A stretch of DNA of 46,804 bases. Source: an endosymbiont of Escarpia spicata (GTDB lineage Bacteria > Pseudomonadota > Gammaproteobacteria > Chromatiales > Chromatiaceae). Of this stretch, positions 18,419 to 39,555 are shown piece by piece. Where the stretch lies: assembly GCA_003349915.1 (NCBI GenBank), contig QFXE01000023.1, positions 1 to 46,804 of the forward strand. Reading direction: 5' to 3'. The translations under genes and the position numbers were made by a program. Positions within the stretch are counted from its first letter, which is position 1. Every line of letters begins with the position of its first letter. Under the pieces are notes generated by a model. The model was given only the letters and a program-made list of their open reading frames with translations. It had not been told where the DNA came from and searched no databases.

Positions 18419-18536
18419 TATAAATAGGAAATAATACGCGGAAAGTCAACCTCTTAATATAAAGGCTGTTTAATAATCCATTAACAACATTTAATCTCAT
18501 TAAAAGCTTATTTCTAAACTGTTATATAATTATTTG

Positions 18537-18601: not shown

Positions 18602-18697
18602 ACAATGCCCAGGGTTTTCATGTAGAGCCAAAGTTAGACAATCTGACAAAGTAGAACCAAGCTATTCCCTGAACCAGCCAAACCACCGGTAAGGACC

Positions 18698-21953: not shown

Positions 21954-21991
21954 CCCCGACTGCCCGACAATCTCAAAACAGACTGGTAACC

Positions 21992-23605
21992 ATGACCAAC
22001 GGAATCCCCTTCAGCGAGGCACTCGGCAACTACACGCCACAGCGCTTTCGCGAGCCCAGCAACGACCAAACAAAAACCCGGGATCTGCTTGAGCAGTTCC
22101 ACCCCGATTACATTCCGGACTCCATGACCACCCTCAAAGTCGGTCCCAACCAGGGCGATGCCTGTCATAAACAACTGGCCGACGTCCTGCAATCGGATGC
22201 CCGTATTGAAGAGGCCGATCTGGCCGGCGCCAACACCGTGGAGACAGATATTCTGGTGGTTGGCGGCGGCGGCGCCGGATGCACCGCTGCACTGACTGCC
22301 GCCCGCAATGGCGCGAAGGTGATCCTTGCCACCAAGCTGCGACTGGGTGACAGCAATACCGTGATGGCCGAAGGTGGCATCCAGACCTCAGTGGAGAAGG
22401 GGGACACCCCCCAGATGCACTATGACGACACCGTCAAGGGCGGCCACCACTATGTAGACAAACCACTGGCGGCACAGATGGTGATGGACGGCCCGGACGT
22501 CATCCGCTGGCTGATCCAACAGGGCATGCAGTTCGACGTGGACAAGTACGGCGACCTGCTGACACGCCGCGCAGGCGGCACCTCCGCCCCCCGCGTCGTC
22601 TACTATCGGGACTACACTGGCCTGGAGATGATGAGAGTACTGCGCGAGGCGCTGACCAACGCCGGTATCGAAGTATGGGACTACAATCCGACCGTGGAAC
22701 TGCTCTCCAACGATCAGGGCCACTGCGCTGGTGCCGTTGTCTCTTCACTGAAAAACTGCTCTTACACCCTGGTAAAAGCGAAGGCAGTGATACTCGCCAC
22801 CGGCGGCATCGGCCGCATGCACCTTAATGGTTTTCCCACATCGAACCACTTCGGCGCCACCGGCGACGGCCTGGTGATGGCCTACCGGATGGGGGCAAAA
22901 CTACGTGATCTCGACTCCTTTCAGTATCACCCCTCGGGCCTGGCCTATCCGCAGCACCTTGCCGGTACCCTGATCACCGAGGGGGTACGCTCCGCCGGGG
23001 CCTACCTGCTGAATGGCCACGGCGACCGCTTCGTCGACGAACTCGGGCCGCGGGACCACGTCGCCGCCGCAATCCTGCGGGAGTGCGAAGAGGGCAGAGG
23101 CGTCCAGGTCAATGAAACGACCCGCGGCATCTGGCTCGACACCCCTGGCGTGGAGTTGCGAAATCCCGGTATCCTGAAGAGCCGCTTCCCCAAGCTGCTG
23201 CAACTCGGCCGCAAATGCGGCATCGATCCGGCCCAGGCGCCACTGTTGATCTATCCGACGCTGCACTATCAGAACGGCGGCGTGGTGATCGACGGCAACG
23301 GCTGTTCAACCGTGCGCGGACTCTACTGCATTGGAGAGGTCTGTGGCGGCATCCACGGCAAAAACCGGCTGATGGGCAACTCCCTGCTCGACATCATCAG
23401 CTTCGGCCGCAGGGCCGGGGAGCATGCCGCCACGGCGGTTCACGGGCGCCCACACAGCAACGTCTCCACCGAGCACCTGAGCGAACTGCGCCGCCAGCTG
23501 ACCCTGGCCGATATGCCGATGGAAAATCAGGGGCCGACGCTGTTTCCCGACTATGCCAAGTTCGAGACCGACTCGGACTACGACGGCCTGCACAAAGCCA
23601 AATAG
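21992..23605 (+). CDS. FrdA-like flavoprotein (soluble fumarate reductase/succinate dehydrogenase type)
   Basis: A 537-aa FAD-dependent protein of the FrdA/SdhA/L-aspartate oxidase family, with ~85 extra N-terminal residues. The FAD dinucleotide fold is DILVVGGGGAGCTAAL (~86-101). The position of the covalently bound FAD histidine is asparagine (GDSNTVMAEGG), so FAD is probably non-covalent. Substrate-site residues of fumarate reductase are kept: QYHPSGL, TLITEGVRSAG, LGPRDHVAAAI (catalytic arginine) and LHYQNGG. The C-terminus carries the ENRLMGNSLLD-like KNRLMGNSLLDI. It stands between the FrdB-like and NuoF-like genes; the trio could couple NADH oxidation to fumarate reduction. L-aspartate oxidase is less likely because of context. 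Confidence 0.85.
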   Translation: MTNGIPFSEALGNYTPQRFREPSNDQTKTRDLLEQFHPDYIPDSMTTLKVGPNQGDACHKQLADVLQSDARIEEADLAGANTVETDILVVGGGGAGCTAALTAARNGAKVILATKLRLGDSNTVMAEGGIQTSVEKGDTPQMHYDDTVKGGHHYVDKPLAAQMVMDGPDVIRWLIQQGMQFDVDKYGDLLTRRAGGTSAPRVVYYRDYTGLEMMRVLREALTNAGIEVWDYNPTVELLSNDQGHCAGAVVSSLKNCSYTLVKAKAVILATGGIGRMHLNGFPTSNHFGATGDGLVMAYRMGAKLRDLDSFQYHPSGLAYPQHLAGTLITEGVRSAGAYLLNGHGDRFVDELGPRDHVAAAILRECEEGRGVQVNETTRGIWLDTPGVELRNPGILKSRFPKLLQLGRKCGIDPAQAPLLIYPTLHYQNGGVVIDGNGCSTVRGLYCIGEVCGGIHGKNRLMGNSLLDIISFGRRAGEHAATAVHGRPHSNVSTEHLSELRRQLTLADMPMENQGPTLFPDYAKFETDSDYDGLHKAK

Positions 23606-23611
23606 GATCTC

Positions 23612-24901
23612 ATGGATAATCTCAATCAAGTACTGCTCAACGAGAACCAAAGGGTCGGCGCTGATTTTAAGGCGTGGAAAGCCGTTGCCGGCAGCGAAGG
23701 ACTGCAGTTGGCCCTGCTCGAAGAGCCGGAAGACCTGATAGAGACCATCCGGCAAGCAGGCCTGCGGGGGCTGGGGGGCAGCGGCTTTCCAACCTATAAA
23801 AAGTGGCAGTACATGGCCGCCCAAGAAGACGCCACGGAAAAATATCTGATCGTCAACGGCAACGAAGATGAACCCGGCACCTTCAAGGATCGTATCCTGC
23901 TGGAGGAGACGCCGCATCAGGTGATTGAAGGGGCCTGCATCTGCGCCCTGGCCTGCGGCATCAACCGCATCATCTTCTACATCAACCCGGAACAGAAGGC
24001 ATCTCTGGAGAACATGCGGGCCGCCGTGGCCCAGTGGGAAGAGTCGGAACTCTATTTCTCGCTATCAAAAAAGACCGGCCAGCCGGTGGAGTTCGAGGTA
24101 ATGGCCACCTCCGGACACTACATCGGCGGCGAAGAGACCGCCGCCATCGAATCGGTGGAGGGCAACTTTCCCTTTCCCCGGGGCAAGCCGCCGTTTCCCG
24201 CAGAATCGGGAGTACACGGCCATCCCACACTCATCAACAACACCGAGACCATCGCCAATGTGGGCCACATCATCAAGCATGGCGCGGCCTGGTACCGGGA
24301 CCAGGGAGTAGGTGAAGCCAGCGGCACCAAGATCTACTGTCTCAGTGGCGACGTCCTCAAACCCGGCGCCTACGAACTGCCGATGGGCACACCACTGGCG
24401 GATCTGATCTTCGACCACGGCGGCGGTATGCTGGTGGATAAACTGTTGAAGGCAGTGTTTACCGGCGGCCCCTCGAACACCATCCTGACCCCGATGGACC
24501 TGGACGTGCCCCTCGACTTCGATTCAGTGGCTGTACGCCGCTCGGCGCTGGGCACCGGCGCCATGATCGTCGTCTCGGAGGGCACCGGCATCGTCAAGCG
24601 GGTCACCGAGTACGTCAACTTCTTTGCCGACTCATCCTGCGGCCAATGTCCTCCATGTAAGACCGGCACCTACTACATCTCCCGCCTGTTGAGCAAAATA
24701 GACACGGGGCAGGGCAGTCAGGCCGACCTGGATTCACTCTACAGTCTGTGCGAAATGTTGCCGGGTACCGGTCGCTGCCATCTGCTGGACGGCGCGGTGA
24801 AGGTACTGGAGAGTTCCCTCTACCACTTCAAGGAGGAGTATGAGGAGGCGATCATGCCCGCCACCCGTTTTGGAATGGGGAATTTTGGCGGCACTGATTG
24901 A
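23612..24901 (+). CDS. NuoF-like NADH-binding flavoprotein subunit
   Basis: A 429-aa protein homologous to the 51-kDa subunit of complex I and to HoxF/HydB/FdhB-type diaphorase subunits. It has the NADH/FMN region GLRGLGGSGFPTYKKW (~49-64), NGNEDEPGTFKDR (~82-94) and YIGGEETA (FMN), the SLBB-like part, and a C-terminal [4Fe-4S] site SSCGQCPPCKTG with a later cysteine in GTGRCHLLDG. No NuoE or NuoG gene accompanies it, so it is not part of complex I here. It begins 6 bp after the FrdA-like gene and is surely co-translated with it. The likely job is to feed electrons from NADH (or take them to NAD+) into the FrdAB-like pair and perhaps further to ferredoxin. Confidence 0.9.
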   Translation: MDNLNQVLLNENQRVGADFKAWKAVAGSEGLQLALLEEPEDLIETIRQAGLRGLGGSGFPTYKKWQYMAAQEDATEKYLIVNGNEDEPGTFKDRILLEETPHQVIEGACICALACGINRIIFYINPEQKASLENMRAAVAQWEESELYFSLSKKTGQPVEFEVMATSGHYIGGEETAAIESVEGNFPFPRGKPPFPAESGVHGHPTLINNTETIANVGHIIKHGAAWYRDQGVGEASGTKIYCLSGDVLKPGAYELPMGTPLADLIFDHGGGMLVDKLLKAVFTGGPSNTILTPMDLDVPLDFDSVAVRRSALGTGAMIVVSEGTGIVKRVTEYVNFFADSSCGQCPPCKTGTYYISRLLSKIDTGQGSQADLDSLYSLCEMLPGTGRCHLLDGAVKVLESSLYHFKEEYEEAIMPATRFGMGNFGGTD

Positions 24902-25846: not shown

Positions 25847-27757
25847 ATGACGCAACAGGCTGACAACGGCGATAGTGCCGTGCAGATTGGCGGGAACAAA
25901 ACCGCCGCCAAGGTAGATGAATATATTGTTGAGATCGTCTCCGATTCAGGCGAGGGCGCGCAGAAGTGCGGCCAGACCTTCGGCAATATCAGCGGCAAGA
26001 TGGGCAACGGCGTCTGGACCGTTGAGATCATTCCGGCGGAGATCCAACCCCCGGCCCGCTCTCCTGCAGGCGCATCCGGCATCCGTATTCGCATCGGCTC
26101 AAAGTACATTACGAATATGGGCAACGAGGCCGAACTGGTTGTTGCCTTCAATGAGCAGGTACTCTTCTCCCGCATAGCCAACGGCGCCTATAAAGAGGGC
26201 ACCATCGTTCTGCTGGAAAACAAGTGGGAGACCGATCCCGACGAGAAGATCCGCAATCAATACACCACAGCGGTAAAAGAGTTTGCTGAGCACGGACTGA
26301 TTGTGCACGAGCTGCCGATGGAAGAGGCGTGCCTGAAAATCGTCTCCAATGCCCGCAAGGGCAAGAACATGTTCGTGCTCGGCATGATCAGTTATATCTT
26401 CAGCCGCGAACCTGATCTGGGGCGTAAGGAGATCGCCAACACCTTCGCTCACAAGGGTGACAAGGTAATCCAGCCCAACATCGATCTGTTTGACTCCGGC
26501 TTCGCCTTCGCTGCTGAACGTCTCGACTATCTGTGGGAAATTCCACCCTACACCACTGACACGACCAAACCGACCATCATCACCAATGGCAACCAGGCGG
26601 TTGGCCTGGGGGTCATGGCGGCGGGCATGGAGCTGATCTCCATGTACCCGATTACACCAGCCACCTCCGCCACTCCCTATGTTGCGGATGTCTTCGACAA
26701 TGTCGGCGGCTTCGTCCATCAGGCAGAGGATGAGATCGCCGCGATGGGCTTTGCCCTCGGCGCCTCCTACGCCGGCAAGACCGCCTGCACCATCACTTCA
26801 GGTCCCGGCATGGCGCTGAAGACCGAACTGATCGGTCTCGCTGTGATGGCTGAAGTGCCCATGGTCATCGTCGACGTACAGCGTGGCGGTCCCTCCACCG
26901 GCCTGCCCACCAAGGTGGAGCAGGCTGATCTGCTCTCCTCCATATACGGCGAGCCGGGGGATGCCCCGAAGATGGTCATCGCTGCCGCCACCATTGAGGA
27001 GTGTTTTCACTTCGTGATCTTGGCGCGCAAACTGGCGGAGGCCTTCCGTACTCCTGTCATTCTGCTTACCGATGCCAATCTGGCTACCGGTGTACAACCT
27101 TACACCCGTCCTGAACTCCAGGAGGAGTGGCTCTCCGCGCCGATCGATCAGTCCCCTTGGGATGACTCCGTACCGGCCTTCGACTGGGACGAAGGCACTG
27201 GCCTCTCCCAGCGCCCGATCCCTGGGCAGCGCAATGGCGAATACGTCTTGACTGGTCTCTCCCACACTGATCGCAGCAAGGTGGCCTACGACTCAGACAC
27301 CAACCAGACCAGTATGGCCCACCGCAGCCGCAAACTGGCGGCCCTGCAGAAGACCCTCAAGCCACCGAAGATCCATGGCGATGAAGCCGGCGGCGATCTG
27401 CTCATCGTCGGCTGGGGTTCAACCGTGGGCGCCATCGAAGAGTCGGTCGACATCCTGCGCGGGCAGGGCAAGAGCATCTCCGCCCTCCACCTGCGATTCC
27501 TGTCGCCGCTGGAGCCGGGACTGAAAGAGATCTTCAGCAAATTCAAAAAGGTCATGACAGTGGAGATCAACTACAGCGATGATCCAAACGGCCCGCTGAT
27601 CACCGAAGAGAACCGCCGCTATGCGCAACTCGCCATGATGTTGCGGGCGCAGACGCTGGTCGACATAGACTGCTGGTCTGTGGTCTACGGCCATCCGCTG
27701 CAGCCAGGTATGCTGCAGGAAGAATTCAGCCAGCGGCTCGATGCCCTGAACAACTGA
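25847..27757 (+). CDS. korA: 2-oxoglutarate:ferredoxin oxidoreductase, fused gamma-alpha subunit
   Basis: A 636-aa 2-oxoacid:ferredoxin oxidoreductase subunit. Residues ~25-200 are the gamma domain (SDSGEGAQKCGQTFGN); residues ~225-450 form the pyrimidine-binding alpha domain, with NGNQAVGLGVMAAGME, the substrate-binding MYPITPATSATPYV, QAEDEIAAMGFALGAS, TSGPGMALKTELIG and QRGGPSTGLPTKVEQ. The C-terminal part is the domain II-like region (DLLIVGWGSTVGAIEESV). With KorB it interconverts 2-oxoglutarate and succinyl-CoA plus CO2 using ferredoxin; in the reductive TCA cycle it fixes CO2. The YPITP.. form and the linked SucCD favour 2-oxoglutarate over pyruvate. A gaggtggt-like site and an upstream promoter candidate are present; korB follows after 13 bp. 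Confidence 0.93.
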   Translation: MTQQADNGDSAVQIGGNKTAAKVDEYIVEIVSDSGEGAQKCGQTFGNISGKMGNGVWTVEIIPAEIQPPARSPAGASGIRIRIGSKYITNMGNEAELVVAFNEQVLFSRIANGAYKEGTIVLLENKWETDPDEKIRNQYTTAVKEFAEHGLIVHELPMEEACLKIVSNARKGKNMFVLGMISYIFSREPDLGRKEIANTFAHKGDKVIQPNIDLFDSGFAFAAERLDYLWEIPPYTTDTTKPTIITNGNQAVGLGVMAAGMELISMYPITPATSATPYVADVFDNVGGFVHQAEDEIAAMGFALGASYAGKTACTITSGPGMALKTELIGLAVMAEVPMVIVDVQRGGPSTGLPTKVEQADLLSSIYGEPGDAPKMVIAAATIEECFHFVILARKLAEAFRTPVILLTDANLATGVQPYTRPELQEEWLSAPIDQSPWDDSVPAFDWDEGTGLSQRPIPGQRNGEYVLTGLSHTDRSKVAYDSDTNQTSMAHRSRKLAALQKTLKPPKIHGDEAGGDLLIVGWGSTVGAIEESVDILRGQGKSISALHLRFLSPLEPGLKEIFSKFKKVMTVEINYSDDPNGPLITEENRRYAQLAMMLRAQTLVDIDCWSVVYGHPLQPGMLQEEFSQRLDALNN

Positions 27758-27770
27758 GGAGATTAGCCAA

Positions 27771-28724
27771 ATGTTTGGATTGAAAGCAGACTGGTCCGTC
27801 GACGTCTTTGAACGCTACTTCACCCTCGGTAATTACGCCGGCGGTGAAGCCCGCTGGTGTCCCGGCTGCGGCGACTTTGCCGTACTCAACACCGTCCACC
27901 GAGTCCTGCGCGACGCCCAGATGCCACCGGAGAAGAGTGTCGTGGTCTCAGGTATCGGCTGTTCCAGCCGCCTGCCCCACTATGTCGGGACCTACGGTCT
28001 GCACGGTCTGCACGGCCGCGCCCTGCCGCTTGCCAACGGCGTCAAGGCGCGCCGTCCCGACCTTGACATCTGGGTCGGCACCGGTGACGGCGACTGCTTC
28101 TCCATCGGCGGAGGTCACTGGCTCCACGCCATGCGTTACAACATGGACATGGTCATATTGATCTTTGATAACGGCATCTACGGCCTGACCAAAAAGCAGA
28201 CCTCGCCCACCACCCCCACTGGCGAACGTACCAATACTCATCCAGAAGGTTCGCTGCTGCCGGCAATGAACCCGCTCACGGTAACTCTGGGCATCACCAA
28301 CGTCTCCTTCGTGGCACAGGTGCCGGACTGGAATCCTCCGCTGCTCTACGAAACGATCAAGGCCGCCCATAAACACCGGGGCACCAGCTTCGTGCGCATC
28401 ATGCAACGCTGCCCGGTCTTCTCGGACGATTTCTGCAAGCCTTATCAGGACCACCCCGAGAATATGCTGCTGCTGTCCCACGAGAACGGCATCCCGGCTG
28501 CTGACAACGTGAAGAAGCTTTTCAAAGAGCAGATTGAGCATGATCCTTCAGATTGGGTGGAGGCGATGAAGATCGCCCGCGATGAGTCAATACTGCCGGT
28601 GGGACTGCTCTATCGAGATCCAGACGCCGTCGTGTATGAGGATTTCTCTGCGAAAGGCCTCAACAAAACCAACGAAGAGAAGCTGGCTGCGATCAACACA
28701 GCTCTCGACGCCTTCGCGATCTAA
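27771..28724 (+). CDS. korB: 2-oxoglutarate:ferredoxin oxidoreductase, beta subunit
   Basis: The 317-aa thiamine-diphosphate-binding subunit. WCPGCGDFAVL (~29-39) and SGIGCSSRLPHYV (~60) supply cluster-ligand cysteines; the TPP/Mg site is GTGDGDCFSIGGGH (~103-116) through NMDMVILIFDNGIYGLTKKQTSPT (shown in parts: NGIYGLTKKQ). A third cysteine region follows in RCPVFSD. All catalytic motifs are intact, so this pair is the true enzyme of the locus, in contrast to the two PFOR-like proteins downstream. A GAGGAG ribosome-binding site stands 9 nt before the ATG. It is the second gene of the operon. Confidence 0.93.
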   Translation: MFGLKADWSVDVFERYFTLGNYAGGEARWCPGCGDFAVLNTVHRVLRDAQMPPEKSVVVSGIGCSSRLPHYVGTYGLHGLHGRALPLANGVKARRPDLDIWVGTGDGDCFSIGGGHWLHAMRYNMDMVILIFDNGIYGLTKKQTSPTTPTGERTNTHPEGSLLPAMNPLTVTLGITNVSFVAQVPDWNPPLLYETIKAAHKHRGTSFVRIMQRCPVFSDDFCKPYQDHPENMLLLSHENGIPAADNVKKLFKEQIEHDPSDWVEAMKIARDESILPVGLLYRDPDAVVYEDFSAKGLNKTNEEKLAAINTALDAFAI

Positions 28725-28751
28725 GTCAGACAACGCCGGGAAAACCCTACG

Positions 28752-31223
28752 ATGACAGTAGTACAGACAGGCGAAGCCACGCCGGCCATGCCCTCCGCCA
28801 TCAAGGATGCGGAGGCCACCAAGACGATTTTGCACACCCTGCGCCACTTCCACCTTGGAAATCCCAGCGTCAGGGGTCAACTGGAGCCGCTTGGTGACGA
28901 TTTTCTGCCCGCACTGATGGCCCCCTATCGGGACGCTTCCCGGCTACGCTACGACTACCCGCTGTTTCTCTATCCCGCCGAGGGTGGCGACGAAGAGCGG
29001 CGGGGCGCCGAGCTGGCCAAACCTCTGGGTATCTTTCTGACGGAAGCCACCGAGGCGGTCGCGCCGGGGGAGGGCAGCGCCCGCATCCTGAAAGACAACC
29101 TTCCGCGTCTGGAGCAGGCTCTGCGACTCGCCCTGCAGGAGAGTCAGGCACCCGTACCGGCCAAGCCTCTGCTCAGTGAACTCTCCACCGTGATGGTAGA
29201 GCAGTTGGGTCTCGACAGCGACAGCACAGAAAAACTGCAAAGTGATCTGAACAACCTGCTGGAGTCGATCCCCGAGAGCGGCCAGTTCCTGGCCTATGGA
29301 CAGCACCCGGCACTGCATCTGATGATCCACGTCATCCGCAGTCAGATGATCCCCCGCCATGCCCATTTTCAGCAGGAGGTTGAGGCCCATATCCGCGGGC
29401 TCAAGCTGTTGCTGGCGGTTGAAAAGGAAAAATCTGCGGAGGCCAAGGCTCCGGCCGCACTGGAAGAGGCAGTGGGCCACGCCTCCCACATGTTCGATGC
29501 CAACGCGCTCGCGGATGTGATGGATCACTCCCACGGCTCCATCGGCATGACAACGGTTCGCCGTGAACGGGTGGAAGAGGCGCTGAAGACGCTGGAGTCC
29601 TATCAGCGGGAATCTATTCTGGTACGGTTTGTCCACACCGACGGCCTGGACGAGACACTACTGGGCGACATCCCCGGCTTCGAAAGCGTCGTCTCTGACA
29701 ATCCCTGCATTCGCGCCAAAGAGATTTTCGACGAACAGGCGACACGCCTGGCCAAAGTCTTTGCCGCAGCGCGCATTGCCAAGCTGGAGATCGACGATCT
29801 CTATGACGAATCGATCCATGACCCCTGGTTTGAGACCTTCAACTGGGAGGCCTTCTCCCATGATGAACTGCTGCTGGTACCGGCGGTCATTGCCCTGGAG
29901 ACCGCCCTGCGCGTAGCCGGTGAAGCGATGCCCGACTTCTCCCGTCTGCTCAATTCCGGTCGTCCCGTGCAGATCCTGGTACGGGTTTTGGGGCACGCCA
30001 ACCCCGGCCGTGACTCCGAAAAAGACCACTTTGCCCATTTCCGCACCGAACTGGGTTACCTCGGTATCAGTCACCGCCAGGCTTTCGTCTCCCAGACCTC
30101 GGCGGCAAGGCACGAGCACCTCCTGGATCAGTTCTCCACCGCACTCGACGCGACCCGCACCGGGCTGCATGTAATCAACGTCGGCCTGCGCCCCACCGGA
30201 CAGGATGTGGGACTCAATGGCTGGCTGGTAGCCGGTGCCGCACTCGAAGGGCGGGTTCATCCCTTCTTCCAGATCAATCCCTCCGCCGGCGACAGCTTTG
30301 CGGACCGGGTCGATTTCAGCGGCAACCCGCAACCTGAGAGGGATTGGGCGGTTCACGAATTCAGCTACCGGGATGAAAACGGCGAGGCCACGACCATCGA
30401 ACAGGCCTTCACCTTTGCCGACTATGCACTGCTGATCCCCCGCCTGCACGGGCACTTCACCCCAGTACCCCTGATCTGCGAGACTGATTCTCTGCTGCCC
30501 GTCGCCGACTATCTGGCCATGCCGGAAGAGGAGTCGGCCCAGCACATTCCCTACATCCTGGCCCTCAACAGCAAGGGCGAGCTGCGCCAATTGGCAGTGA
30601 GCCGCACCCTGATTCAGGCCTGCCGTGACCGCCTCAATTTCTGGCACGCCCTGCAGGAGATGGCAGGCGTACGCAGCCGTTACCTTGAGATAGGCATTGC
30701 CGAGGCCCGCGAAGAGATCAACAGCGCTGCCGAAGCGCGGATTGGGACTCTGACCGCAGAACAGGCGCAGAAACTGGACGAGGCCCGCAACGAAGCTGCC
30801 GGTGAGGTCATGTCCCGCCTCACCGAAGTGCTGTTGGGCATGGACTTCACCAGTGGCGCACCGCGAATGCCAGCCGCACCAACGGCTGACGCAACCACGA
30901 CACCGGCGAAAACCACGGCAGAACCCACAGCGGAAGAGTCTGCGGCGCCTGTCGAAGAAGAGGAAGATCTCACCAGCGAAGAGCCCTGGATCGACAGCGT
31001 TCTCTGCACCACCTGCAACGACTGCCTGGCGATCAATCCCCAGGTTTTTGTCTACAACGACGAGAACCAGGCCTACATCGCTGACGCCAGCGCCGGCACC
31101 TATGCCCAAATGGTGGAAGCGGCTGAGATCTGCCCATCCAACTGTATTCATCCGGGGAAACCCATCAACGACTCCGAAGCAGGGCTGGATGAATTGATTG
31201 AAAGGGCGGCGCAGTATAACTAG
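28752..31223 (+). CDS. PFOR-like protein lacking TPP motif, with ferredoxin tail
   Basis: An 823-aa protein directly after korB (27 bp). Residues ~375-690 are related to the C-terminal (TPP) domain of pyruvate:ferredoxin oxidoreductase: SHRQAFVSQTS, then HPFFQINPSAG, DRVDFSGNP and FWHALQEMAG line up one for one with the 1505-aa protein at 32700-37217. The GDG-type TPP/Mg motif is absent (the place reads VPAVIALETALR), so it should not bind TPP. A low-complexity Ala/Thr/Pro/Glu linker (~705-745) leads to a C-terminal [4Fe-4S] ferredoxin, CTTCNDCLAINPQVF with EICPSNCIHPG. The first ~370 residues are helical and unrecognised. I infer an electron-transfer or docking subunit for KorAB. Confidence 0.7.
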   Translation: MTVVQTGEATPAMPSAIKDAEATKTILHTLRHFHLGNPSVRGQLEPLGDDFLPALMAPYRDASRLRYDYPLFLYPAEGGDEERRGAELAKPLGIFLTEATEAVAPGEGSARILKDNLPRLEQALRLALQESQAPVPAKPLLSELSTVMVEQLGLDSDSTEKLQSDLNNLLESIPESGQFLAYGQHPALHLMIHVIRSQMIPRHAHFQQEVEAHIRGLKLLLAVEKEKSAEAKAPAALEEAVGHASHMFDANALADVMDHSHGSIGMTTVRRERVEEALKTLESYQRESILVRFVHTDGLDETLLGDIPGFESVVSDNPCIRAKEIFDEQATRLAKVFAAARIAKLEIDDLYDESIHDPWFETFNWEAFSHDELLLVPAVIALETALRVAGEAMPDFSRLLNSGRPVQILVRVLGHANPGRDSEKDHFAHFRTELGYLGISHRQAFVSQTSAARHEHLLDQFSTALDATRTGLHVINVGLRPTGQDVGLNGWLVAGAALEGRVHPFFQINPSAGDSFADRVDFSGNPQPERDWAVHEFSYRDENGEATTIEQAFTFADYALLIPRLHGHFTPVPLICETDSLLPVADYLAMPEEESAQHIPYILALNSKGELRQLAVSRTLIQACRDRLNFWHALQEMAGVRSRYLEIGIAEAREEINSAAEARIGTLTAEQAQKLDEARNEAAGEVMSRLTEVLLGMDFTSGAPRMPAAPTADATTTPAKTTAEPTAEESAAPVEEEEDLTSEEPWIDSVLCTTCNDCLAINPQVFVYNDENQAYIADASAGTYAQMVEAAEICPSNCIHPGKPINDSEAGLDELIERAAQYN

Positions 31224-31227
31224 GCGG

Positions 31228-31250
31228 AAGGAAAAAGGTTAAAGGATAAG
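31228..31250. repeat. purine-rich repeat (AAAGG units), left of the S23-type gene
   Basis: aaggaaaaaggttaaaggat is built of AAAGG-like units. Its complement, atcctttatcctttgtcctg, lies at 31771-31790, so the two bracket the four-helix-bundle gene. Longer relatives flank sucC (37219-37360 and 38541-38675). Confidence 0.6.
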
Positions 31251-31390
31251 AATTTGGGATTGGCGGGTCACGCCAGAATGGTACATTGGCCCAAGGTTAG
31301 GAGCCTCTGAATAAATCTGGACGAAACAGATTGGGATTCAGAATTCGTTTAGAGACTCCTAAGTCTCTTACTTAAAACTCGGAGTCATGG

Positions 31391-31771
31391 ATGACTACAC
31401 AGTTTGAAGAACTTGAAGTTTGGAAACGCTCCGCCCGCCTGAGTGTGGAGATATACAAAGTACTGCGTGATTGCCGGGATTACAGCTTCAAAGATCAGCT
31501 GAGCAGGAGCGGGCTTTCCGTTCCGAGCAATATTGCAGAAGGCTTTGAGAGAGAGTCGCTCAAAGAGAGTTTGAACTTCCTCTCATATGCTAAAGGCTCA
31601 TGCGGCGAACTGCGCACACAGACCTACATTGGCATCAAAATCGGCTATATCGATACAGTGACTGGAACAAGATGGATTGCAGAATCAAAACAGATTTCCG
31701 TCATGCTTGCCGGGTTGATCCGGACAAGGCGCAACTTTGTGCGCCAACAGTCACGTACAGCCCCCACATGA
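31391..31771 (+). CDS. four-helix-bundle protein of the 23S rRNA-IVS (S23) family
   Basis: A 126-aa protein of the S23/bAvd-like family, originally found inside 23S rRNA intervening sequences and related to the accessory protein of diversity-generating retroelements. Signs: FEELEVWKRSARLSVEIYK (residues 4-22), the FKDQLSRSGLSVPSNIAEGFER stretch (~38-59), FLSYAKGSCGELRTQ (~68-82) and the final helix SKQISVMLAGLIR. They form pentamers and bind nucleic acid. It is out of place here: it interrupts an operon of redox genes and is bracketed by purine-rich repeats, with no rRNA near. A GGAG site 6 nt upstream supports the start. Confidence 0.88.
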   Translation: MTTQFEELEVWKRSARLSVEIYKVLRDCRDYSFKDQLSRSGLSVPSNIAEGFERESLKESLNFLSYAKGSCGELRTQTYIGIKIGYIDTVTGTRWIAESKQISVMLAGLIRTRRNFVRQQSRTAPT

Positions 31772-31790
31772 TCCTTTATCCTTTGTCCTG
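31771..31790. repeat. pyrimidine-rich repeat right of the S23-type gene
   Basis: atcctttatcctttgtcctg is the near-complement of the purine-rich block at 31228-31250. It lies just past the stop of the four-helix-bundle gene and 26 bp before the RnfB-like start. Confidence 0.6.
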
Positions 31791-31815
31791 TTTCCACGAG
31801 TGCGAGAATCCCTCC

Positions 31816-32691
31816 GTGTCTGAAACCCTTTCCAACTTCCTCATCGCCCCAGCCATCATGACCGGCATCGCCCTGTTTTTCGGCGTGGTGCTGGCGGTCG
31901 CCTACAAGTTTCTCAAGGTGGAGGAGGATCCCCGTATCTCCACCACAGAAGACCTGCTGCCCGGCACCAACTGCGGTGCCTGCGGCGAGCCAGGCTGCCT
32001 GCCTTTTGCCGAAGCACTGGTGGATGGCAGTGTGCAGCCGAGCGGCTGCACCGTGGCCGATGAGAACACCATCGATGCCATTGCCGATTTTCTTGGGGTC
32101 GATGCCGGTCAGGCCGACAAGCAGGTCGCCCGGCTTAAATGCGCCGGCGGCAAGTCACAGGCCTTCCAGATCGCTGAATATGACGGCTTCGAAAGCTGCC
32201 GCGCCGCCGCCACGGTCTCGGGAGGCGGAAAAGGCTGCTCCTGGGGCTGTCTCGGATTGGCTGACTGCGAGGTCTCCTGCGATTTCGATGCCATCCACAT
32301 GAACGCCAACGGCCTGCCCACCGTCGATGTCGACAAGTGCACTGCCTGCGAAGATTGCGTCGAGGCCTGCCCCAAGGATCTCTTCGAGATCATGCCTTTG
32401 AGCCAGAAGCTCTACGTCCAGTGCAATAACCCGTTGGAGGGCGATGCGGTAACCGTGCTCTGTTCCGTGGGTTGTGATGCCTGCGGTAAATGTGCGGCTG
32501 ATGCATCCCCCGGCCTGATCGAGATGCGCAACAACCTGCCGGCCATCGATCTCGACTCCGGCGCCCCCATGACCGAGATCGCCATCAAACGCTGCCCCAC
32601 AAACGCTATCCAATGGCTGGAGGAGGGACAGTTTACCCGCCAGCCATCTGAGCAAGCTGAGAGTGAAAAACGCTATGCCCAGCTCCATTGA
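31816..32691 (+). CDS. RnfB-like polyferredoxin
   Basis: A protein of about 291 aa of the RnfB type, the iron-sulfur subunit through which the Rnf complex meets ferredoxin. One N-terminal membrane helix (IAPAIMTGIALFFGVVLAVAY split over residues ~10-32) is followed by the RnfB signature NCGACGEPGCLPFAEAL, a later KCAGG, then CSWGCLGLADCEVSC, CTACEDCVEACP, CSVGCDACGKC and a final RCPTNAI, i.e. several [4Fe-4S] sites. I take the GTG at 31816 as start since it keeps the membrane helix; ATG at 31858 is the alternative. The other Rnf genes (A, C, D, G, E) are absent, so this is a stand-alone RnfB working with the kor genes. Its stop lies 8 bp before the next start. Confidence 0.85.
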   Translation: MSETLSNFLIAPAIMTGIALFFGVVLAVAYKFLKVEEDPRISTTEDLLPGTNCGACGEPGCLPFAEALVDGSVQPSGCTVADENTIDAIADFLGVDAGQADKQVARLKCAGGKSQAFQIAEYDGFESCRAAATVSGGGKGCSWGCLGLADCEVSCDFDAIHMNANGLPTVDVDKCTACEDCVEACPKDLFEIMPLSQKLYVQCNNPLEGDAVTVLCSVGCDACGKCAADASPGLIEMRNNLPAIDLDSGAPMTEIAIKRCPTNAIQWLEEGQFTRQPSEQAESEKRYAQLH

Positions 32692-32699
32692 GGTTTCCT

Positions 32700-35600
32700 A
32701 TGTCCGCTAATATCGCAATCCGCCTCTATCGCCGACTCTTCGGCACACCGGCTGGACTTGGACCAAAGGATACGGGAATACATACCCTGCTTGACGGTAA
32801 CAGCGCCATTGCAGTCACCGAGGCCTGTATCGCCGGGAACGCGGCACTCGCCAGCGCCTTTCCGGCCAATGGTGCAGACCTTGCGTGGCAGTCTGAGCAG
32901 ACCCGTCAACAGCACAACGTCTTCGGCGAACTGCTTGGCACTCATCCGGCTGAGAGTCCCCGAGGCGCCATCGCTGCCGCCAGCGGCCTCGCAATGGCCG
33001 GACAGCGCGCCACCGCATTCCTCTCCACGCCGGATCTGACCGCCGCGCTGGACCTGCTCAACAGCGCCGCTGCCAAGCAACTGCCGCTGGTGCTGCATGC
33101 CAACAACCGGGCGCTGGGTGGCAGTGCCGGCACCTGTCACCAAGCCCTGCACCAGATCTGCGATGCCGGTTTTTTTGTGCTGTTCGCCAGTAACGTCCAG
33201 CAAGCGGTCGACTTCACCCTGATTGCCCGACGCGTCGCTGAAGAGACCCTGACCCCCGGACTGGTGATTATCGATCAGGATGAAACCGCTGATGCAATAC
33301 AAAACGTCCATCTGCTTTCACCTGGCCTGATCCAGCGCTACCTGGGCAGGGCCGATGAGCAGATTGAATGCGCCAGCGCCGCTGAAAAACTACTGTTTGG
33401 CGAGACCCGGCGCCGTCTGCCACAGCGGCACAATCTTGATCGACCGGTACTGCAGGACCCCCTGATGGACCGGCGCAGCCACGGTCTGGGCCGTGCCGCC
33501 CGCACGCCGTTCTTCGACGGCCACATCAGTGCCGCCCTGCAGAACGCCTGCGAGACCTTTGCAGAGCAGACCGGTCGCAGCCAGCAGCTCATCACCACAC
33601 TGAACACGGAAAAAGCCAAACAGCTGATCCTGGTTCAGGGCGCGGCCACTGAGACCCTGCTCGCACTCTCCAGCCACCTGAAGAAGCATGACAAGCAACG
33701 GATTGGCATCGTCGGCATCCACGCCTTGCGCCCATTCCCCTCCGCGGAGCTGCTGAATCTGTTGAAGGGTAAAACCTCCGTCACCGTTCTTGAGCGCGCA
33801 GAAACACCGTTGGCAGGAGACCCACCCCTGCTGCGGGAACTGCGCACGGCGTTAAGCCAGGCACTGGAAAACGGCCGCTTCGGGGAAGCGACACATCCCG
33901 GTCTGCCGACACTGCGGAAAAGTGAACAGCCACGTCTTCGCCCGGTCATCTATGGCCTGGGCGGACTGGCGCTGAACAGCGCCGACCTCGTCACTCTCAT
34001 CGGCCAGACTGAGGCAAAAGGGCGCTATCTGGGCATCGACTTCACCCGTGCCATTGAAAAGCATCCCAAACGTCAGGTACTGCTCGACGCACTGCGCCGC
34101 GACTACCCGGAGATCAACGATCTCGGCATCTGCGCCAAAACCCCCGCACGGGATCTGCGTCCCGACGCATCCCTGAGTTTCGCCATACAGCACCTCAGCG
34201 GAGAAGGGGATCGGGGACTTGCCGCCGAAACCGCAACCTTTATCTACCAGCTCGTGGAAGGTGAGGCGCGCATCCGCTGCGACGAAAGCTGGAACGCCTG
34301 GGGCGATTGGCTGACCGACCGGGTGGTAATGGCCCCCGAAGGGTTGCGAGACTGCGGTAGTGAAATGCCCCTGGATCTGATCCTGCTCGACGGCCCGTTG
34401 AACCATCCGCAACTGATCCCTGATACCCAACTCCCCCAAGGCGGCTGCCTGCTGATGGCAGCAGACGAAGCGGGCACTGAATCTCCACTTTCGCCCGCAC
34501 TGCGCCAGACCATCCAGAGCCGGGGGCTCAAATGCTATCGCATGCCCTCCACCAGCGGAATGGATGAAACAACCCGCCGTGAGACCTGCCTCGGCGCACT
34601 TTGCAGCGTCCTGATTGCGGAAGAGAAATTGCCGCTGCAGCCCCGCAAGCTCATCAGTACACGCGAACAGCAACTTCAGCCGGGGATTCTGACCGAGGCC
34701 TTCCAAACAGGCCTGGAAGAGACCACTGCCACCGACCTCAGCGCGGAAACCGGCACCCAAGATGAAGCGGTAGCTTCCAGGCCGACACCTATGGCCGTCC
34801 GCCATCTGGCAGGCGACAACGACAGTTACGACAGTCTGCCCCGTTTCTGGGACCAGACAGGCATACTCTATCGGGACGGCGACCTCGACAGCCTCACACC
34901 CGACCCCTATCTGGCGTCAGGTTTGGTGCCGCCGCTCTCCGCCACCTTCAAGGACCACAGCGGCAGCCGCACCCTGCTGCCAGTGTTCGACCCACAGACC
35001 TGCACCGCCTGCGGCGACTGCTGGAGCGCATGCCCTGACGGCGCCATCGGCGTCACCGCGCTCTCACCTGTCACGCTGATCAATGCCGGTATCGGCCTTG
35101 CCGGAGCCAGCGCCCTGCGCCCCCTGGCCTCCAAACTTGGTGGACGAATCAGCGCCCTCGGTCGACAGAACGCCATACAAGGCGGCAACGCGGCAGATCT
35201 GATCCGGGAGGCCTTCGACTGGCTGCAGGAGAAAGCGCCTCTGGCCGAAGATCGCAGGAGCGCCGCGGAGAGTGGCATCAAGGATCTGGAGAAACTCTAC
35301 GGCACACTGCCTCTGGCCGTCACCGAGCCACTCTTCCAGGCCGGTGAACAGGCGAAGAAAGATGGCGGAGAGCTGCTGGCCCTGGCCATCAATCCCGACG
35401 CCTGCAAGGCCTGCGGGCTCTGCATCGCTGCCTGCCAACCACAATCACTGAGCATCGCCCCACAGACACCGGAACTGTTGCAGCAGAGCCACCAGACCTG
35501 GGCCGCCTGGGAAATCACGCCTGACACGGCCTCCGAGACCATCGAGCGGGTTGCCGCCCACCCCGATGTGACGCCCATGGCGGCGCAACTGCTCTCCCGC

Positions 35601-37217
35601 TACAGCCTGCTCTCGCTGGCCAGCGGCGACAGCGCCGAGCCCGGCTCCGGCGAGAAGGTCGCGGTACGGCTGACACTGGCTACCATCGAATATCGTCAAC
35701 AACCTCTGCTGCACCGATTTGCCGGAGAAGTCGGACAACTCAATCAGCGGCTGAATGATGCCATCAAGGAGACCCTGGTGGACGCGCTGCCCACTGAGGA
35801 TCTCGAACGTCTCGCAGGCAGACTGGCAGAACTCGACGACCGTCAGATCGACATCAACGAATTGACCCGGCAGCCCGAAGGCAGCCTGGAGAACAGCGGT
35901 GTCGATGCCGATCATCTGCGCCGTCTCACCACCCTGGCACAGCAGCTGTCAGAACAGCACTGGCGACTGACAGAGGGTCAACAGGGTCTCGGACGCGCCC
36001 GCTACGGACTCGCTCTGGCCCCCGGTGTTATGGCCACCTGGGCGGCCTCGTTTCCGCATAACCCCTTCCAGGTTCCCGTCGCGCTGGACAGCAGCGGCGA
36101 AACCGCCCAGCTCGCTGCCGGCCTGCTGGAAGGTCAGATAGAAGAGGCTCTCACCTCGATTCGGCTCGTCCGCAAGGCAAAGATCGAACTGGGGGAGGGT
36201 GGCCGTAATGCCATCGACCCCGACCTGCTCAGCTGGCAGGATCTCACTAATGAAGAGAAGGCACTCTGCCCGCCGCTGCTTCTGGTGGGTAATGAAGAGA
36301 CCCTCGGTGGGCGCAACTTCAGCCAGATCGCCTGGCTGCTGAATTCCGATCTGCCGATCAAGGTACTCACACTCACAGAACTCGACTTCGGACTCGACAA
36401 CCGGGGTCTCGAAGACGCACCCCTGCAACGTCTCAGCGATCCCAAGGGCAACCTCGGACTGCTCGCCCTCTCCCAGCGCAATGCCTTTGTGGCACAGACC
36501 AGCATCGCCGACCCCACCCATCTGCAGGAGAGCGTCTCTGCCGCATTGGCCTGCCAGGGACCGGCACTGCTGCGCATCCACACACCCAGCCCGGCGCGTC
36601 ACGGCTTCGCCACCGACCGGACCCTGGAGCAGGCGAGATTGGCAGTACGCAGCCGGGCCTTTCCTCTATTCCAGTACGATCCCCGTGGGGAAGGCGTGTT
36701 CGGCTCCCGCCTCAATCTTGCAGGCAATCCGGCGCGGGGCACCCTGCTGCACAACAGCAACGATCAGCAGGTCATCACTCTTGCTCACTGGGCACTGACC
36801 GAAGACCGCTTCGCCAGCCGCTTCCGGCCCTTGGCGGACGAGGATTCAGCGCCCACAGCCCTGGAAGATTGGCTCGCCCTGGATGCGGGTACACGCGCTA
36901 AAAAGACTCCGATCATCTCTGTACATCGTAACGATGAGAGTGCAGAGGTTTATCGTGTCGATCCACAGCTGGGCCAAGTCGTGGTGGAACAACTCGACGC
37001 TTGGCGCACTCTGCAGGAACTTGCCGGGATAGTCACACCCTTCACCGCTCGTGTAGAGCAAGCGGCAGATGCGCGTGTCGCAGCAGAACATGAGACAGAG
37101 ATCAATGCCCTCCGGGCCGACTACGAGAAGCAGCTCAACGCCTCTCGCAAAGGCGCGGAGGAAGAGATGGCGGGACACATTCGCGAGCGGCTGATGGTGC
37201 TGGCGGGGTATAAATGA
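32700..37217 (+). CDS. giant PFOR-like protein with lost catalytic motifs
   Basis: A 1505-aa protein with the domain order of pyruvate:ferredoxin oxidoreductase (usually ~1170-1200 aa). Domain I-like: LLDGNSAIAVTEACIAGNA (~26-44) and FASNVQQAVDFTLIARRV (~158-175), but the substrate motif YPITP is missing. Domain II-like: KAKQLILVQGAATETLLAL to GIHALRPFPSAELL (~300-350). Two [4Fe-4S] motifs, CTACGDCWSACPDGAIG (~767) and CKACGLCIAACQ (~901). The TPP-domain region (~1180-1430) has GNEETLGG where GDGWA..G is expected, then SQRNAFVAQTS, LFQYDPRGEG and AWRTLQELAG, shared with the 823-aa protein. So it has kept the electron-transfer clusters but probably not catalysis. Start chosen at ATG 32700 (gagg 9 nt upstream); 12 nt earlier is another ATG. 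Confidence 0.75.
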   Translation: MSANIAIRLYRRLFGTPAGLGPKDTGIHTLLDGNSAIAVTEACIAGNAALASAFPANGADLAWQSEQTRQQHNVFGELLGTHPAESPRGAIAAASGLAMAGQRATAFLSTPDLTAALDLLNSAAAKQLPLVLHANNRALGGSAGTCHQALHQICDAGFFVLFASNVQQAVDFTLIARRVAEETLTPGLVIIDQDETADAIQNVHLLSPGLIQRYLGRADEQIECASAAEKLLFGETRRRLPQRHNLDRPVLQDPLMDRRSHGLGRAARTPFFDGHISAALQNACETFAEQTGRSQQLITTLNTEKAKQLILVQGAATETLLALSSHLKKHDKQRIGIVGIHALRPFPSAELLNLLKGKTSVTVLERAETPLAGDPPLLRELRTALSQALENGRFGEATHPGLPTLRKSEQPRLRPVIYGLGGLALNSADLVTLIGQTEAKGRYLGIDFTRAIEKHPKRQVLLDALRRDYPEINDLGICAKTPARDLRPDASLSFAIQHLSGEGDRGLAAETATFIYQLVEGEARIRCDESWNAWGDWLTDRVVMAPEGLRDCGSEMPLDLILLDGPLNHPQLIPDTQLPQGGCLLMAADEAGTESPLSPALRQTIQSRGLKCYRMPSTSGMDETTRRETCLGALCSVLIAEEKLPLQPRKLISTREQQLQPGILTEAFQTGLEETTATDLSAETGTQDEAVASRPTPMAVRHLAGDNDSYDSLPRFWDQTGILYRDGDLDSLTPDPYLASGLVPPLSATFKDHSGSRTLLPVFDPQTCTACGDCWSACPDGAIGVTALSPVTLINAGIGLAGASALRPLASKLGGRISALGRQNAIQGGNAADLIREAFDWLQEKAPLAEDRRSAAESGIKDLEKLYGTLPLAVTEPLFQAGEQAKKDGGELLALAINPDACKACGLCIAACQPQSLSIAPQTPELLQQSHQTWAAWEITPDTASETIERVAAHPDVTPMAAQLLSRYSLLSLASGDSAEPGSGEKVAVRLTLATIEYRQQPLLHRFAGEVGQLNQRLNDAIKETLVDALPTEDLERLAGRLAELDDRQIDINELTRQPEGSLENSGVDADHLRRLTTLAQQLSEQHWRLTEGQQGLGRARYGLALAPGVMATWAASFPHNPFQVPVALDSSGETAQLAAGLLEGQIEEALTSIRLVRKAKIELGEGGRNAIDPDLLSWQDLTNEEKALCPPLLLVGNEETLGGRNFSQIAWLLNSDLPIKVLTLTELDFGLDNRGLEDAPLQRLSDPKGNLGLLALSQRNAFVAQTSIADPTHLQESVSAALACQGPALLRIHTPSPARHGFATDRTLEQARLAVRSRAFPLFQYDPRGEGVFGSRLNLAGNPARGTLLHNSNDQQVITLAHWALTEDRFASRFRPLADEDSAPTALEDWLALDAGTRAKKTPIISVHRNDESAEVYRVDPQLGQVVVEQLDAWRTLQELAGIVTPFTARVEQAADARVAAEHETEINALRADYEKQLNASRKGAEEEMAGHIRERLMVLAGYK

Positions 37218-37379: not shown

Positions 37380-38540
37380 ATGAATCTACACGAATACCAA
37401 GCTAAGGCTCTCTTTTCCGAGTACGGTATCCCTGTCCCCGAGGGCAAGGCAGTCTCTACACCGAGTGATGCACGGGCGGCGGCCCAAGCGCTTGGCGGCG
37501 GGATCTGGGTGGTCAAGGCCCAAGCCCACACCGGTGGCCGGGGCAAGGCGGGCGGCGTGATACTGGCCAAGAGTCTGGATGAGGTTGAAGCCGCTGCGGA
37601 GGAGATCCTCGGCATGACCCTGGTCACCAAGCAGACCGGCCCGGAAGGTCTGCCGGTCAACCAGGTGTTGGTGGAGCAGGGCAGCAATATTGCCCGTGAA
37701 CTCTACCTCGGCGCACTGTTGGACCGCGCCTGCTCCCGTATTACCTTCATGGCCTCTACAGAAGGTGGCATGAACATCGAAGAGGTTGCCGAAGCGACGC
37801 CGGAGAAGATCCTCACTACGGTGATCGACCCCGCTGCGGGCCTCCAGCCTTATCAATGCCGCAAACTTGCCTTCGGCCTGGGACTTGAAGGCGACCAGAT
37901 CAAACAGTTCGGCAAGATCATGATGGGCCTCTACCGGTCCTACATGGAGAAAGATGTCAGCCTGATCGAAATCAATCCATTGATCGTCACCAGCGAAGGT
38001 GACCTGATGGCACTGGACGCCAAGATCAACATCGACAGCAACGCCCTCTATCGCCACCAGGATATCGTCGCCCTGCGCGATCCGAGTCAGGAGGATGAGA
38101 AGGAAGCGGCTGCCGCCAAGCACGATCTCAACTACATTACCCTGGACGGCAGCATCGGCTGCATGGTCAACGGCGCAGGTTTGGCGATGGCCACCATGGA
38201 CATGGTCAAACTGCATGGTGGCGACCCGGCCAACTTCCTCGACGTGGGCGGTGGCGCCACTGCCGAGCGGGTCACAGAGGCCTTCAAGCTGATCCTCTCC
38301 GACAGCAAGGTGAAGACCGTGCTGGTAAATATCTTCGGCGGCATCGTGCGTTGCGATCTGATTGCCGAGGGCGTCATCACCGCCGCTAAGAATGTCGGCG
38401 TGCAGGTGCCGGTTGTGGTGCGTTTGGAAGGTACCAATGCCGAGCAGGGGCTGAAGATGCTGGAGGAGAGCGGACTCGACTTCATCACCGCCGCCGACTT
38501 CACTGAAGCCGCCAAAAAGGCGGTCGCTGCAGCTGCTTGA
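37380..38540 (+). CDS. sucC: succinyl-CoA synthetase beta subunit (ADP-forming)
   Basis: A 386-aa ATP-grasp enzyme subunit, matching the family's ~388 aa. It starts with [20 protein letters not shown], has the nucleotide-binding [16 protein letters not shown] (~42-57), [24 protein letters not shown] (~195) and the C-terminal [17 protein letters not shown] and [11 protein letters not shown]. With SucD it makes succinyl-CoA from succinate, ATP and CoA, or the reverse. In this cluster it supplies the substrate for KorAB in the reductive direction. A strong ribosome-binding site (ggagg, 8 nt upstream) is present. The gene is cut off from the upstream operon by a repeat block, so it may have its own promoter. 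Confidence 0.97.
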
Positions 38541-38685: not shown

Positions 38686-39555
38686 ATGAGCATACTCGTA
38701 GACAAGAACACCAAGGTCATCTGCCAGGGCTTCACCGGCAAACAGGGCACTTTTCACTCCGAACAGGCCATCGCCTATGGCACCAAACTGGTGGGCGGCG
38801 TGACCCCCGGTAAAGGTGGCCAGTCACATCTCGATCGTCCGGTCTTCAATACCGTTCACGATGCAGTGGCCGAGACCGGCGCTGACGCGACCATGATCTA
38901 TGTACCTCCACCATTTGCCGCCGATGCAATCCTTGAGGCCGCCGACGCGGGTATCAGGGTCATCGCCTGCATCACAGAGGGTATCCCGGTGCTGGATATG
39001 CTGAAGGTTAAGGAGGCATTGAAATCCACCGGCTCCCGCCTCATCGGCCCCAACTGCCCCGGCATCATCACTCCCGGCGAGTGCAAGATCGGCATCATGC
39101 CCGGCGTCATTCACAAGCCCGGCAAGGTGGGCGTTATGTCCCGCTCCGGCACCCTGACCTATGAGGCCGTGGGCCAGACCACCAATGCTGGCCTGGGCCA
39201 GAGCACCTGCGTCGGACTGGGAGGCGATCCCATCAACGGCACCAGTTTCATCGACTGCCTGGAGCTGTTCGAAAAAGACGAAAAGACCGAGGGCATTATC
39301 ATGGTGGGTGAAATCGGTGGTTCCGCCGAGGAGGAGGCCGCCGACTACATCAAGGCACACGTCTCCAAACCGGTGGTCGCCTACATTGCCGGCGTCACCG
39401 CTCCCGCCGGTAAGCGTATGGGCCATGCCGGTGCCATTATCAGTGGCGGCAAAGGTACTGCCGACGCCAAGTTTGAGGCACTGGAAGGAGCTGGTGCCCA
39501 TGTGGTCCGCTCTCCTGCTGAAATGGGCAAGCGTATGGCGGAATTGTTGGGTTAG
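38686..39555 (+). CDS. sucD: succinyl-CoA synthetase alpha subunit
   Basis: A 289-aa subunit with the CoA-binding Rossmann domain ([22 protein letters not shown] in parts, residues ~12-33; GGVTPGKGG) and the ligase domain. The phosphorylated histidine is in [13 protein letters not shown] (~242-254). [15 protein letters not shown] and [11 protein letters not shown] are standard family motifs. It follows sucC after a 145-bp repeat block and lacks a good ribosome-binding site. Length equals the E. coli protein. Confidence 0.97.

Follow-up and report, generated by a model that had tools for sequence, protein, structure and literature searches.

In a 46,804-nucleotide stretch of DNA (the window; positions 1 to 46,804, forward strand, of contig QFXE01000023.1, assembly GCA_003349915.1) from an endosymbiont of the tubeworm Escarpia spicata, the genes korA and korB for a two-subunit 2-oxoacid:acceptor oxidoreductase are followed on the same strand by a gene for a protein that we call X, by rnfB, and by a gene for a larger protein that we call Y (Table 1). 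Both X and Y are homologues of pyruvate:ferredoxin oxidoreductase (PFOR) that have lost its active site. The linkage of 2-oxoglutarate synthase genes to rnf genes, with the two active-site-less PFOR relatives encoded among them, is real, conserved and, as far as we have searched, undescribed. The families of the components are each known; what is new is how they are combined and the adaptor role proposed here.

The enzyme part of the locus is formed by KorAB. KorA scored 487 bits against TIGR03710 (cut-off 483) and matched the Pfam families POR, POR_N and PFOR_II, indicating gamma and alpha domains. KorB scored 227.9 bits against TIGR02177, below the cut-off of 261.9, with an E-value of 2e-67, and by this match it is a divergent member of the PorB/KorB family. 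A first-pass annotation, made from the sequence alone, had assigned full catalytic motifs to both subunits, and these are present in the translations: YPITPA in KorA and GDG...N in KorB. The KorB motif reads GDGDCFSIGG...N, and the protein has cysteines at positions 30, 33, 64, 109, 214 and 222, among which the cluster ligands are presumably those of the family. A specificity for 2-oxoglutarate/succinyl-CoA over pyruvate is suggested by the family name, the sucCD neighbours and relatives named as 2-oxoglutarate enzymes. The Magnetococcus structure 6n2n is homologous to the window KorA over residues 25-578 and to KorB over residues 27-219; this entry lists chains of the KorA and KorB type, and gave no match to X or Y.

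The same annotation had named an 823-residue ferredoxin-tailed protein, a 1505-residue PFOR-like protein and RnfB, in agreement with the Pfam and NCBIfam matches; Y has 1509 residues when read from the TTG at 32688 and 1505 from the ATG at 32700. The only Pfam match of X is a C-terminal Fer4_13 domain. Alignments were made of 30 X and 25 Y-halves picked for spread. The relationship to PFOR was evident from profile comparisons: Y residues 16-1447 aligned with PFOR residues 5-1507 (E 8e-195), and X residues 11-823 with PFOR residues 718-1649 (E 4e-94), where PFOR residues are counted from the stop-to-stop frame. Motif counts omitted X frames shorter than 800 residues and Y frames shorter than 1400, which left 75 X and 45 Y besides those of the window. 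At the aligned sites, YPITP, GDG and NTGG were present in all nine long PFORs and absent from all 46 Y and all 76 X. The cysteines of the proximal cluster were missing altogether from 76/76 X and 45/46 Y, the remaining Y having one. An active PFOR function of X or Y is ruled out by this loss of motifs. A loose string, GDG-x(20-34)-NxG, occurred in nine of the 76 X and none of the 46 Y, and all nine were an 'AGDG' several residues off the aligned GDG.

The electron-transfer sites show a different pattern. The two domain-V [4Fe-4S] sites of PFOR retain their full set of eight cysteines in 46/46 Y, the second four-cysteine motif of the window Y being recognised by alignment, and Y lacks the C-terminal ferredoxin of PFOR. 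In X, the medial domain-V site has no cysteine in 70/76 proteins and one in 6/76, and the distal site is gapped in 76/76, but the four cysteines of the C-terminal ferredoxin are present in 75/76; the sole exception (locus L083) is an X that leaves the frame at its end. Judged by these residues, X and Y retain complementary parts of the PFOR wire, with two predicted [4Fe-4S] clusters in Y and one ferredoxin-type cluster in X, and their losses, namely the thiamine pyrophosphate (TPP) site and the proximal cluster, are what KorB is predicted to supply. The ratio of non-synonymous to synonymous substitution rates, determined between the window and the congener G005 only, was 0.092 for X, 0.171 for Y and 0.084 for korA, indicating purifying selection.

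Single-chain AlphaFold models, with Y modelled as residues 718-1509, had a mean predicted local distance difference test score of 80 for X and 81 for this part of Y. A database search with the two large proteins had been suggested in the first-pass annotation as a check; it yielded PFOR-type matches, and in the Protein Data Bank the top entries were PFOR and oxalate oxidoreductase structures (best E 9e-07 for X and 2e-12 for Y 718-1509). PFOR of the Desulfovibrio/Moorella type (1b0p, 6cin) matched Y residues 35-395 in sequence, and Y 718-1509 and the beta domain of X in structure. X and Y differ from it in lacking the TPP motifs and the proximal cluster and in having an extra long helix behind the beta domain. 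These long helices may allow X to pair with Y, by analogy with the chains of the PFOR homodimer. An X/Y-specific coiled coil was considered because the helix is found in both models, but was kept as a hint only. The segment after the beta domain has 56 residues in X (44/76 measurable) and a median of 56 in Y (range 18-56; 35/46 measurable). A longer segment also occurs there in three PFORs of another family (L126-L128, no rnf nearby); in the PFORs its length was measured in only two of nine (29 and 56 residues). Helical periodicity exceeded that of shuffled sequences at 0.022 in X but at no better than 0.18 in Y.

The window RnfB (open reading frame 31600-32691) scored 93 bits against TIGR01944, with a cut-off of 69. 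It had been called stand-alone in the first-pass annotation, which proved incorrect because rnfC-D-G-E-A lie on the same contig (C17:48158-52729), starting approximately 1.4 kb beyond the window and 11 kb downstream of Y; in many relatives they come immediately after Y. RnfC of this set scored 525 bits (cut-off 246), and RnfB, C and D are all above the curated cut-offs. No second rnfB was found around rnfC-D-G-E-A in the 19-kb stretch 40000-59000. RnfB, C, D, G, E and A are thus all encoded, rnfB in the window and the others on the same contig, as a whole dedicated set, and the view of RnfB as a lone recruited polyferredoxin is ruled out. The set is separate from the canonical RnfABCDGE: its long RnfB is encoded between X and Y, and, in a comparison with one sequence, its RnfD is far from the housekeeping copy of the genome, which holds three rnfD copies. 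RnfD proteins of the PFOR-type clusters formed one group (100/100), from which the single housekeeping RnfD used was very distant. The RnfB of the window shares its long cysteine-rich form with that of a second locus in the same genome (L024), unlike the 205-residue housekeeping frame. Ion translocation with NADH:ferredoxin chemistry is established for other Rnf complexes.

This second locus (G000:C10:128000-147000, 4690-15895) encodes, between rnfB and rnfC-D-G-E-A, a 1644-residue PFOR whose motifs are intact and whose C-terminus forms a ferredoxin domain. Six of nine PFOR loci (L024, L124, L125, L129, L130 and L131) have a long PFOR placed between rnfB and rnfC; the other three PFORs, of 1680 residues and another family, had no rnf gene in stretches of 8.7-16.8 kb. 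In a list compiled by hand, from which a 118-residue fragment (G010:C364) is omitted, 19 of 24 PFOR-type matches had an rnfD match on the same contig within approximately 4 kb, one of them a weak 34-bit fragment. The Rnf-linked long PFOR (approximately 1650 residues, order rnfB-PFOR-rnfC-D-G-E-A) has the same position relative to rnfB and rnfC as the genes in the window, is homologous to Y and X over nearly their full length, and ends in a ferredoxin as X does. It is, however, a single chain that retains the TPP motifs and every cluster site, whereas in the window catalysis would reside in KorAB and the wire would be split in two. On the basis of these sequence relationships, X and Y probably derive from an extra-long, Rnf-linked PFOR, and an Rnf-wired PFOR would have been duplicated and its parts recruited to KorAB. 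In a beta-domain tree with 16/76 X, 14/46 Y and 9/9 PFOR, X, Y, the Rnf-linked PFORs and the other PFORs each formed one strongly supported group. The tree left the order of the groups unresolved (71/33), and the notion that a single duplication gave rise to X and Y as sisters was dropped. No description of an Rnf-linked PFOR of the L024 kind turned up in the open literature searched.

The arrangement is widely conserved. A scan of genome contigs with the X alignment gave 95 relatives and returned 80 loci, on which the following locus counts rest. No title among these loci fell outside the Gammaproteobacteria; one says Pseudomonadota only, and some symbiont titles name no group. Carriers of X include Sedimenticola, Thiodiazotropha, Thiosymbion, Thiomargarita and relatives, Achromatium and Woeseiaceae, and X identity in the Lamellibrachia and Escarpia tubeworm-symbiont loci is 94-95%. 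The recurrent order is korA-korB-X-rnfB-Y-(sucCD)-rnfC-D-G-E-A. Upstream of X, korB and korA were found in 64 of the 71 loci with more than 1.2 kb there; downstream, rnfB follows within 0.6 kb in 54/65 loci, and Y follows rnfB in all 53 loci with rnfB and enough downstream sequence. Where at least 4.5 kb was available after Y, rnfC was present in 26/27 loci, in three of these after sucCD; regardless of the length available, it was present in 41 of the 54 loci with Y, and seven of the 13 without it end less than 80 bases from Y. Recurrence in many genera, together with the purifying selection on X and Y, indicates that this arrangement is not due to chance.

Co-occurrence across genomes points in the same direction. 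Among 360 genomes of the class, 12 had X (E<=1e-100), 12 had the korA clade (E<=1e-150), and 11 had both (Fisher p 5e-19, kinship ignored). The first-pass annotation had proposed to check whether the large proteins occur mostly without korAB, and for X this is not so; Y was traced via its linkage to X. In all 11 genomes with both, the X and korA matches lie on one contig and strand, 1.0-1.4 kb apart, which leaves room for korB. There were two exceptions. In G756, which has X, the contig is 6 kb long and breaks off immediately upstream of X, but X-rnfB-Y are present on it. In G631 (L132 6868-15070), an NfnAB-like pair is followed by korA-korB, with a korA of this clade, and then by an X-like protein that carries three ferredoxin domains in tandem (552 bits against the X profile), and no rnf or Y was found in the 19-kb stretch. 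As G631 has NfnAB-like genes in place of rnf, X appears to follow KorAB even with a different redox partner. Among 55 relatives, 14 had X, 15 the korA clade (at least 69% identity) and 14 both; in the fifteenth korA-clade carrier, G014, korA lies 0.9 kb from the contig end. The only full-length X among 398 sampled genomes of the phylum was that of the window itself.

From our sequence and genomic analyses, we consider it probable that the locus encodes a dedicated Rnf-coupled 2-oxoglutarate:acceptor oxidoreductase, in which X and Y act as non-catalytic electron adaptors that wire KorAB to Rnf. In marine sulfur bacteria, deep-sea tubeworm symbionts among them, genes for a CO2 enzyme adjoin those for an ion pump and are accompanied by genes for two active-site-less PFOR relatives; this arrangement suggests that enzyme and pump are joined by a hard-wired route for electrons. 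KorAB would carry out the chemistry (succinyl-CoA + CO2 <-> 2-oxoglutarate), with TPP and the proximal cluster in KorB; X and Y would relay electrons between the KorB cluster and RnfB of the dedicated RnfBCDGEA; and Rnf would link these electrons to NADH with ion movement, such that a free ferredoxin pool would not be needed. We infer a physical complex with clusters assembled in X and Y, and the order of electron hops among the clusters of KorB, Y, X and RnfB is a guess. The large proteins had been seen in the first-pass annotation as dedicated electron-transfer or scaffold partners of KorAB in a possibly membrane-tethered complex. Their korAB linkage, lost catalytic motifs and kept clusters support this, although the Rnf partner is wider than was noted there.

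The net direction is probably reductive, albeit reversible, with succinyl-CoA carboxylation driven by NADH and the ion gradient. We prefer this sense since, in part of the carriers only, the neighbouring genes would spell a path from fumarate via succinate and succinyl-CoA to 2-oxoglutarate. The carboxylation requires approximately -0.5 V and NADH provides -0.32 V, and therefore an ion-driven push would be needed. More tentatively, and with some doubt, we envisage a membrane-anchored 2-oxoglutarate synthase supercomplex in which X and Y form a fixed wire from an NADH-driven, ion-gradient-powered Rnf to KorAB, allowing oxygen-exposed sulfur bacteria to carboxylate succinyl-CoA without a free pool of low-potential ferredoxin.

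Several observations weigh against an Rnf-wired KorAB. The template modelling score (TMq) of the X model to PFOR is low (approximately 0.2), and that of Y 718-1509 moderate (approximately 0.4). In the genome of the window, 11 kb of other genes lie between Y and rnfC; no rnfC was found within approximately 4 kb after Y in four tubeworm-symbiont loci, nor after Y in L079 (4.6 kb) and L100 (3.6 kb), and in G001 the kor and rnfC parts share a scaffold but are widely separated, whereas in G004 they are on different contigs. X occurs without a following rnfB in 11/65 loci and without preceding korAB in 7/71. Ten of these 11 loci, and six of these seven, belong by title to Thiotrichaceae relatives or Thiosymbion, and in three such loci (L053, L063 and L065) rnfD and rnfG are located close to korAB on the other strand. 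An E1 component of 2-oxoglutarate dehydrogenase (OGDH) is encoded in 11/14 X carriers, but also in 38/41 non-carriers (E<=1e-3; 35 above the cut-off), and its presence says little on direction because it is equally common in the latter.

The assembly could instead run oxidatively, as an energy-conserving alternative to OGDH that passes electrons via X and Y to Rnf, yielding NADH and an ion gradient. We regard this as rather unlikely, although citrate synthase and sucCD are neighbours and direction is not readable from sequence. It would be redundant in the 11 X carriers that also have OGDH E1, whereas G017 and G021 (95% and 100% complete) carry X and gave no OGDH E1 match. The tfrA-like and NuoF-like genes, where present upstream of korA (13/43 and 19/43 loci, respectively, with at least 4.5 kb upstream), suit the reductive branch. 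In the literature, the dimeric korAB copies are described as presumably bidirectional (PMC9796809), and an oxidative tricarboxylic acid (TCA) cycle use of citrate synthase beside dimeric korAB is weighed, with a reversed cycle as the alternative (PMC6315080).

The loss of catalytic motifs in both X and Y would also suit structural scaffolds or assembly factors of KorAB, with electrons travelling via free ferredoxin to any Rnf, and two-subunit KorAB working with soluble ferredoxin is the known mode elsewhere. However, the cluster cysteines were kept while the TPP motifs and the proximal cluster decayed, so that conservation tracks electron transfer, and rnfB lies between X and Y wherever it could be followed (the 53 loci above); such a scaffold role therefore seems improbable to us. 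Least credible is that X and Y use a new cofactor to catalyse another reaction, have nothing to do with KorAB and are merely co-encoded with it. X and Y are long conserved proteins matching PFOR-type and ferredoxin models only, and the lone Asp of GDG is kept in 30/46 Y (0/76 X), which also counts against purely non-catalytic adaptors; yet X co-occurs with one korA clade, and no other cofactor family was matched in Pfam or NCBIfam at E<=1e-3.

In the open literature searched, supplements excluded, we found no description of a kor-rnf linkage of the window type, of X, of Y or of such a complex. For the Escarpia symbiont, a dimeric korAB has been reported close to gltA and further TCA cycle genes (PMC6315080), and this is probably the window locus. 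Two dimeric korAB copies are described in Endoriftia (PMC9796809), and korAB and rnf are mentioned for Thiomargarita, not linked to each other in the parts seen (PMC4853749, PMC4914600). Under sulfide limitation, korAB(3) and a 'PFOR-like' gene drop together (PMC11636981), which fits our results and is not assignable to the window locus. One of the closest known systems, described in PMC6315080 and PMC11636981, is the four-subunit KorABCD with Flx-Hdr of tubeworm symbionts. It occurs in the same kind of organism, and a direct electron feed to 2-oxoglutarate:ferredoxin oxidoreductase (OGOR) has also been proposed for it, but it uses different genes and flavin-based bifurcation, in contrast to Rnf and PFOR-derived adaptors in the window. 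Low-potential carboxylation needs electrons well below NADH, and their supply in microaerobic sulfur oxidisers and animal symbionts is at stake; the literature consulted discusses flavin-based bifurcation. A hard-wired Rnf-OGOR, if confirmed, would be a direct route driven by the ion gradient, might account for the 'PFOR-like' genes reported from symbiont transcriptomes, and would clearly exemplify the conversion of a metabolic enzyme into an adaptor for electron transfer.

Table 1. Genes at and around the kor-rnf locus of the window (positions are those of the window).
Gene or product	Position	Strand	Remarks
Citrate synthase	19562-20875	-	Beyond the upstream + strand neighbours
208-aa iron-sulfur protein	21327..21953	+	Weak TfrB/SdhB-like and other Fe-S matches, all below NCBIfam cut-offs
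tfrA-like, FAD fumarate-reductase/aspartate-oxidase-like flavoprotein	21992..23605	+	Upstream neighbour
NuoF-like NADH/FMN/4Fe-4S protein	23612..24901	+	Upstream neighbour
korA, gamma+alpha subunit of 2-oxoacid (2-oxoglutarate):acceptor oxidoreductase, 636 aa	25847..27757	+	YPITPA motif
korB, TPP-binding beta subunit, 317 aa	27771..28724	+	GDG...N motif; six Cys including CPGC
X, 823 aa, homologue of the C-terminal half of long PFOR, C-terminal [4Fe-4S] ferredoxin domain	28752..31223	+	
Four-helix S23/IVP-type (23S rRNA intervening sequence) protein	31391..31771	+	Between X and rnfB
rnfB, long form of ~291 aa, N-terminal hydrophobic helix, ~20 Cys	31816..32691	+	Open reading frame opens at 31600
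Y, nearly full-length PFOR homologue	32688..37217	+	POR_N, PFOR_II, Fer4
sucC, succinyl-CoA synthetase beta	37380..38540	+	Between Y and rnfC in some relatives
sucD, succinyl-CoA synthetase alpha	38686..39555	+	

The start of rnfB was placed near 31816 because the RnfB of relatives has approximately 290 residues. Among the upstream neighbours, the 208-residue iron-sulfur protein possibly belongs to the same functional module as the kor genes, and the row of iron-sulfur, fumarate-reductase-like and NuoF-like genes (21327-24901) might encode an NADH-linked soluble fumarate reductase. Rfam and tRNA scans of the window gave no matches, and promoter- and terminator-like sites were discarded, their counts being close to or lower than the mean of shuffled sequences. 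A phosphofructokinase-like gene (C17 ~46774-48228), located between the window end and rnfC, contains undetermined bases.

Some divergent relatives were also found. L134 (G745, 6287-18999) has the cluster korA-korB-X-rnfB-Y-rnfC-rnfD, with a Y that is closer to PFOR than the window Y in a single-sequence comparison. The TPP motifs are gone in its X and Y, its Y has the eight cluster cysteines, and, of the four ferredoxin cysteines, its X has three in the aligned positions. In L135 (G461), both korA and X are split between reading frames. Many proteobacterial genomes (G208, G212, G137 and others) have an open reading frame of approximately 550 residues that matches X in the region of residues 395-560 only (E 1e-8 to 1e-13). 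The S23/IVP-type gene between X and rnfB, which was overlooked in the first-pass annotation, is confined to four tubeworm-symbiont loci among the 80 examined, and is split in L032 and shortened in L039.

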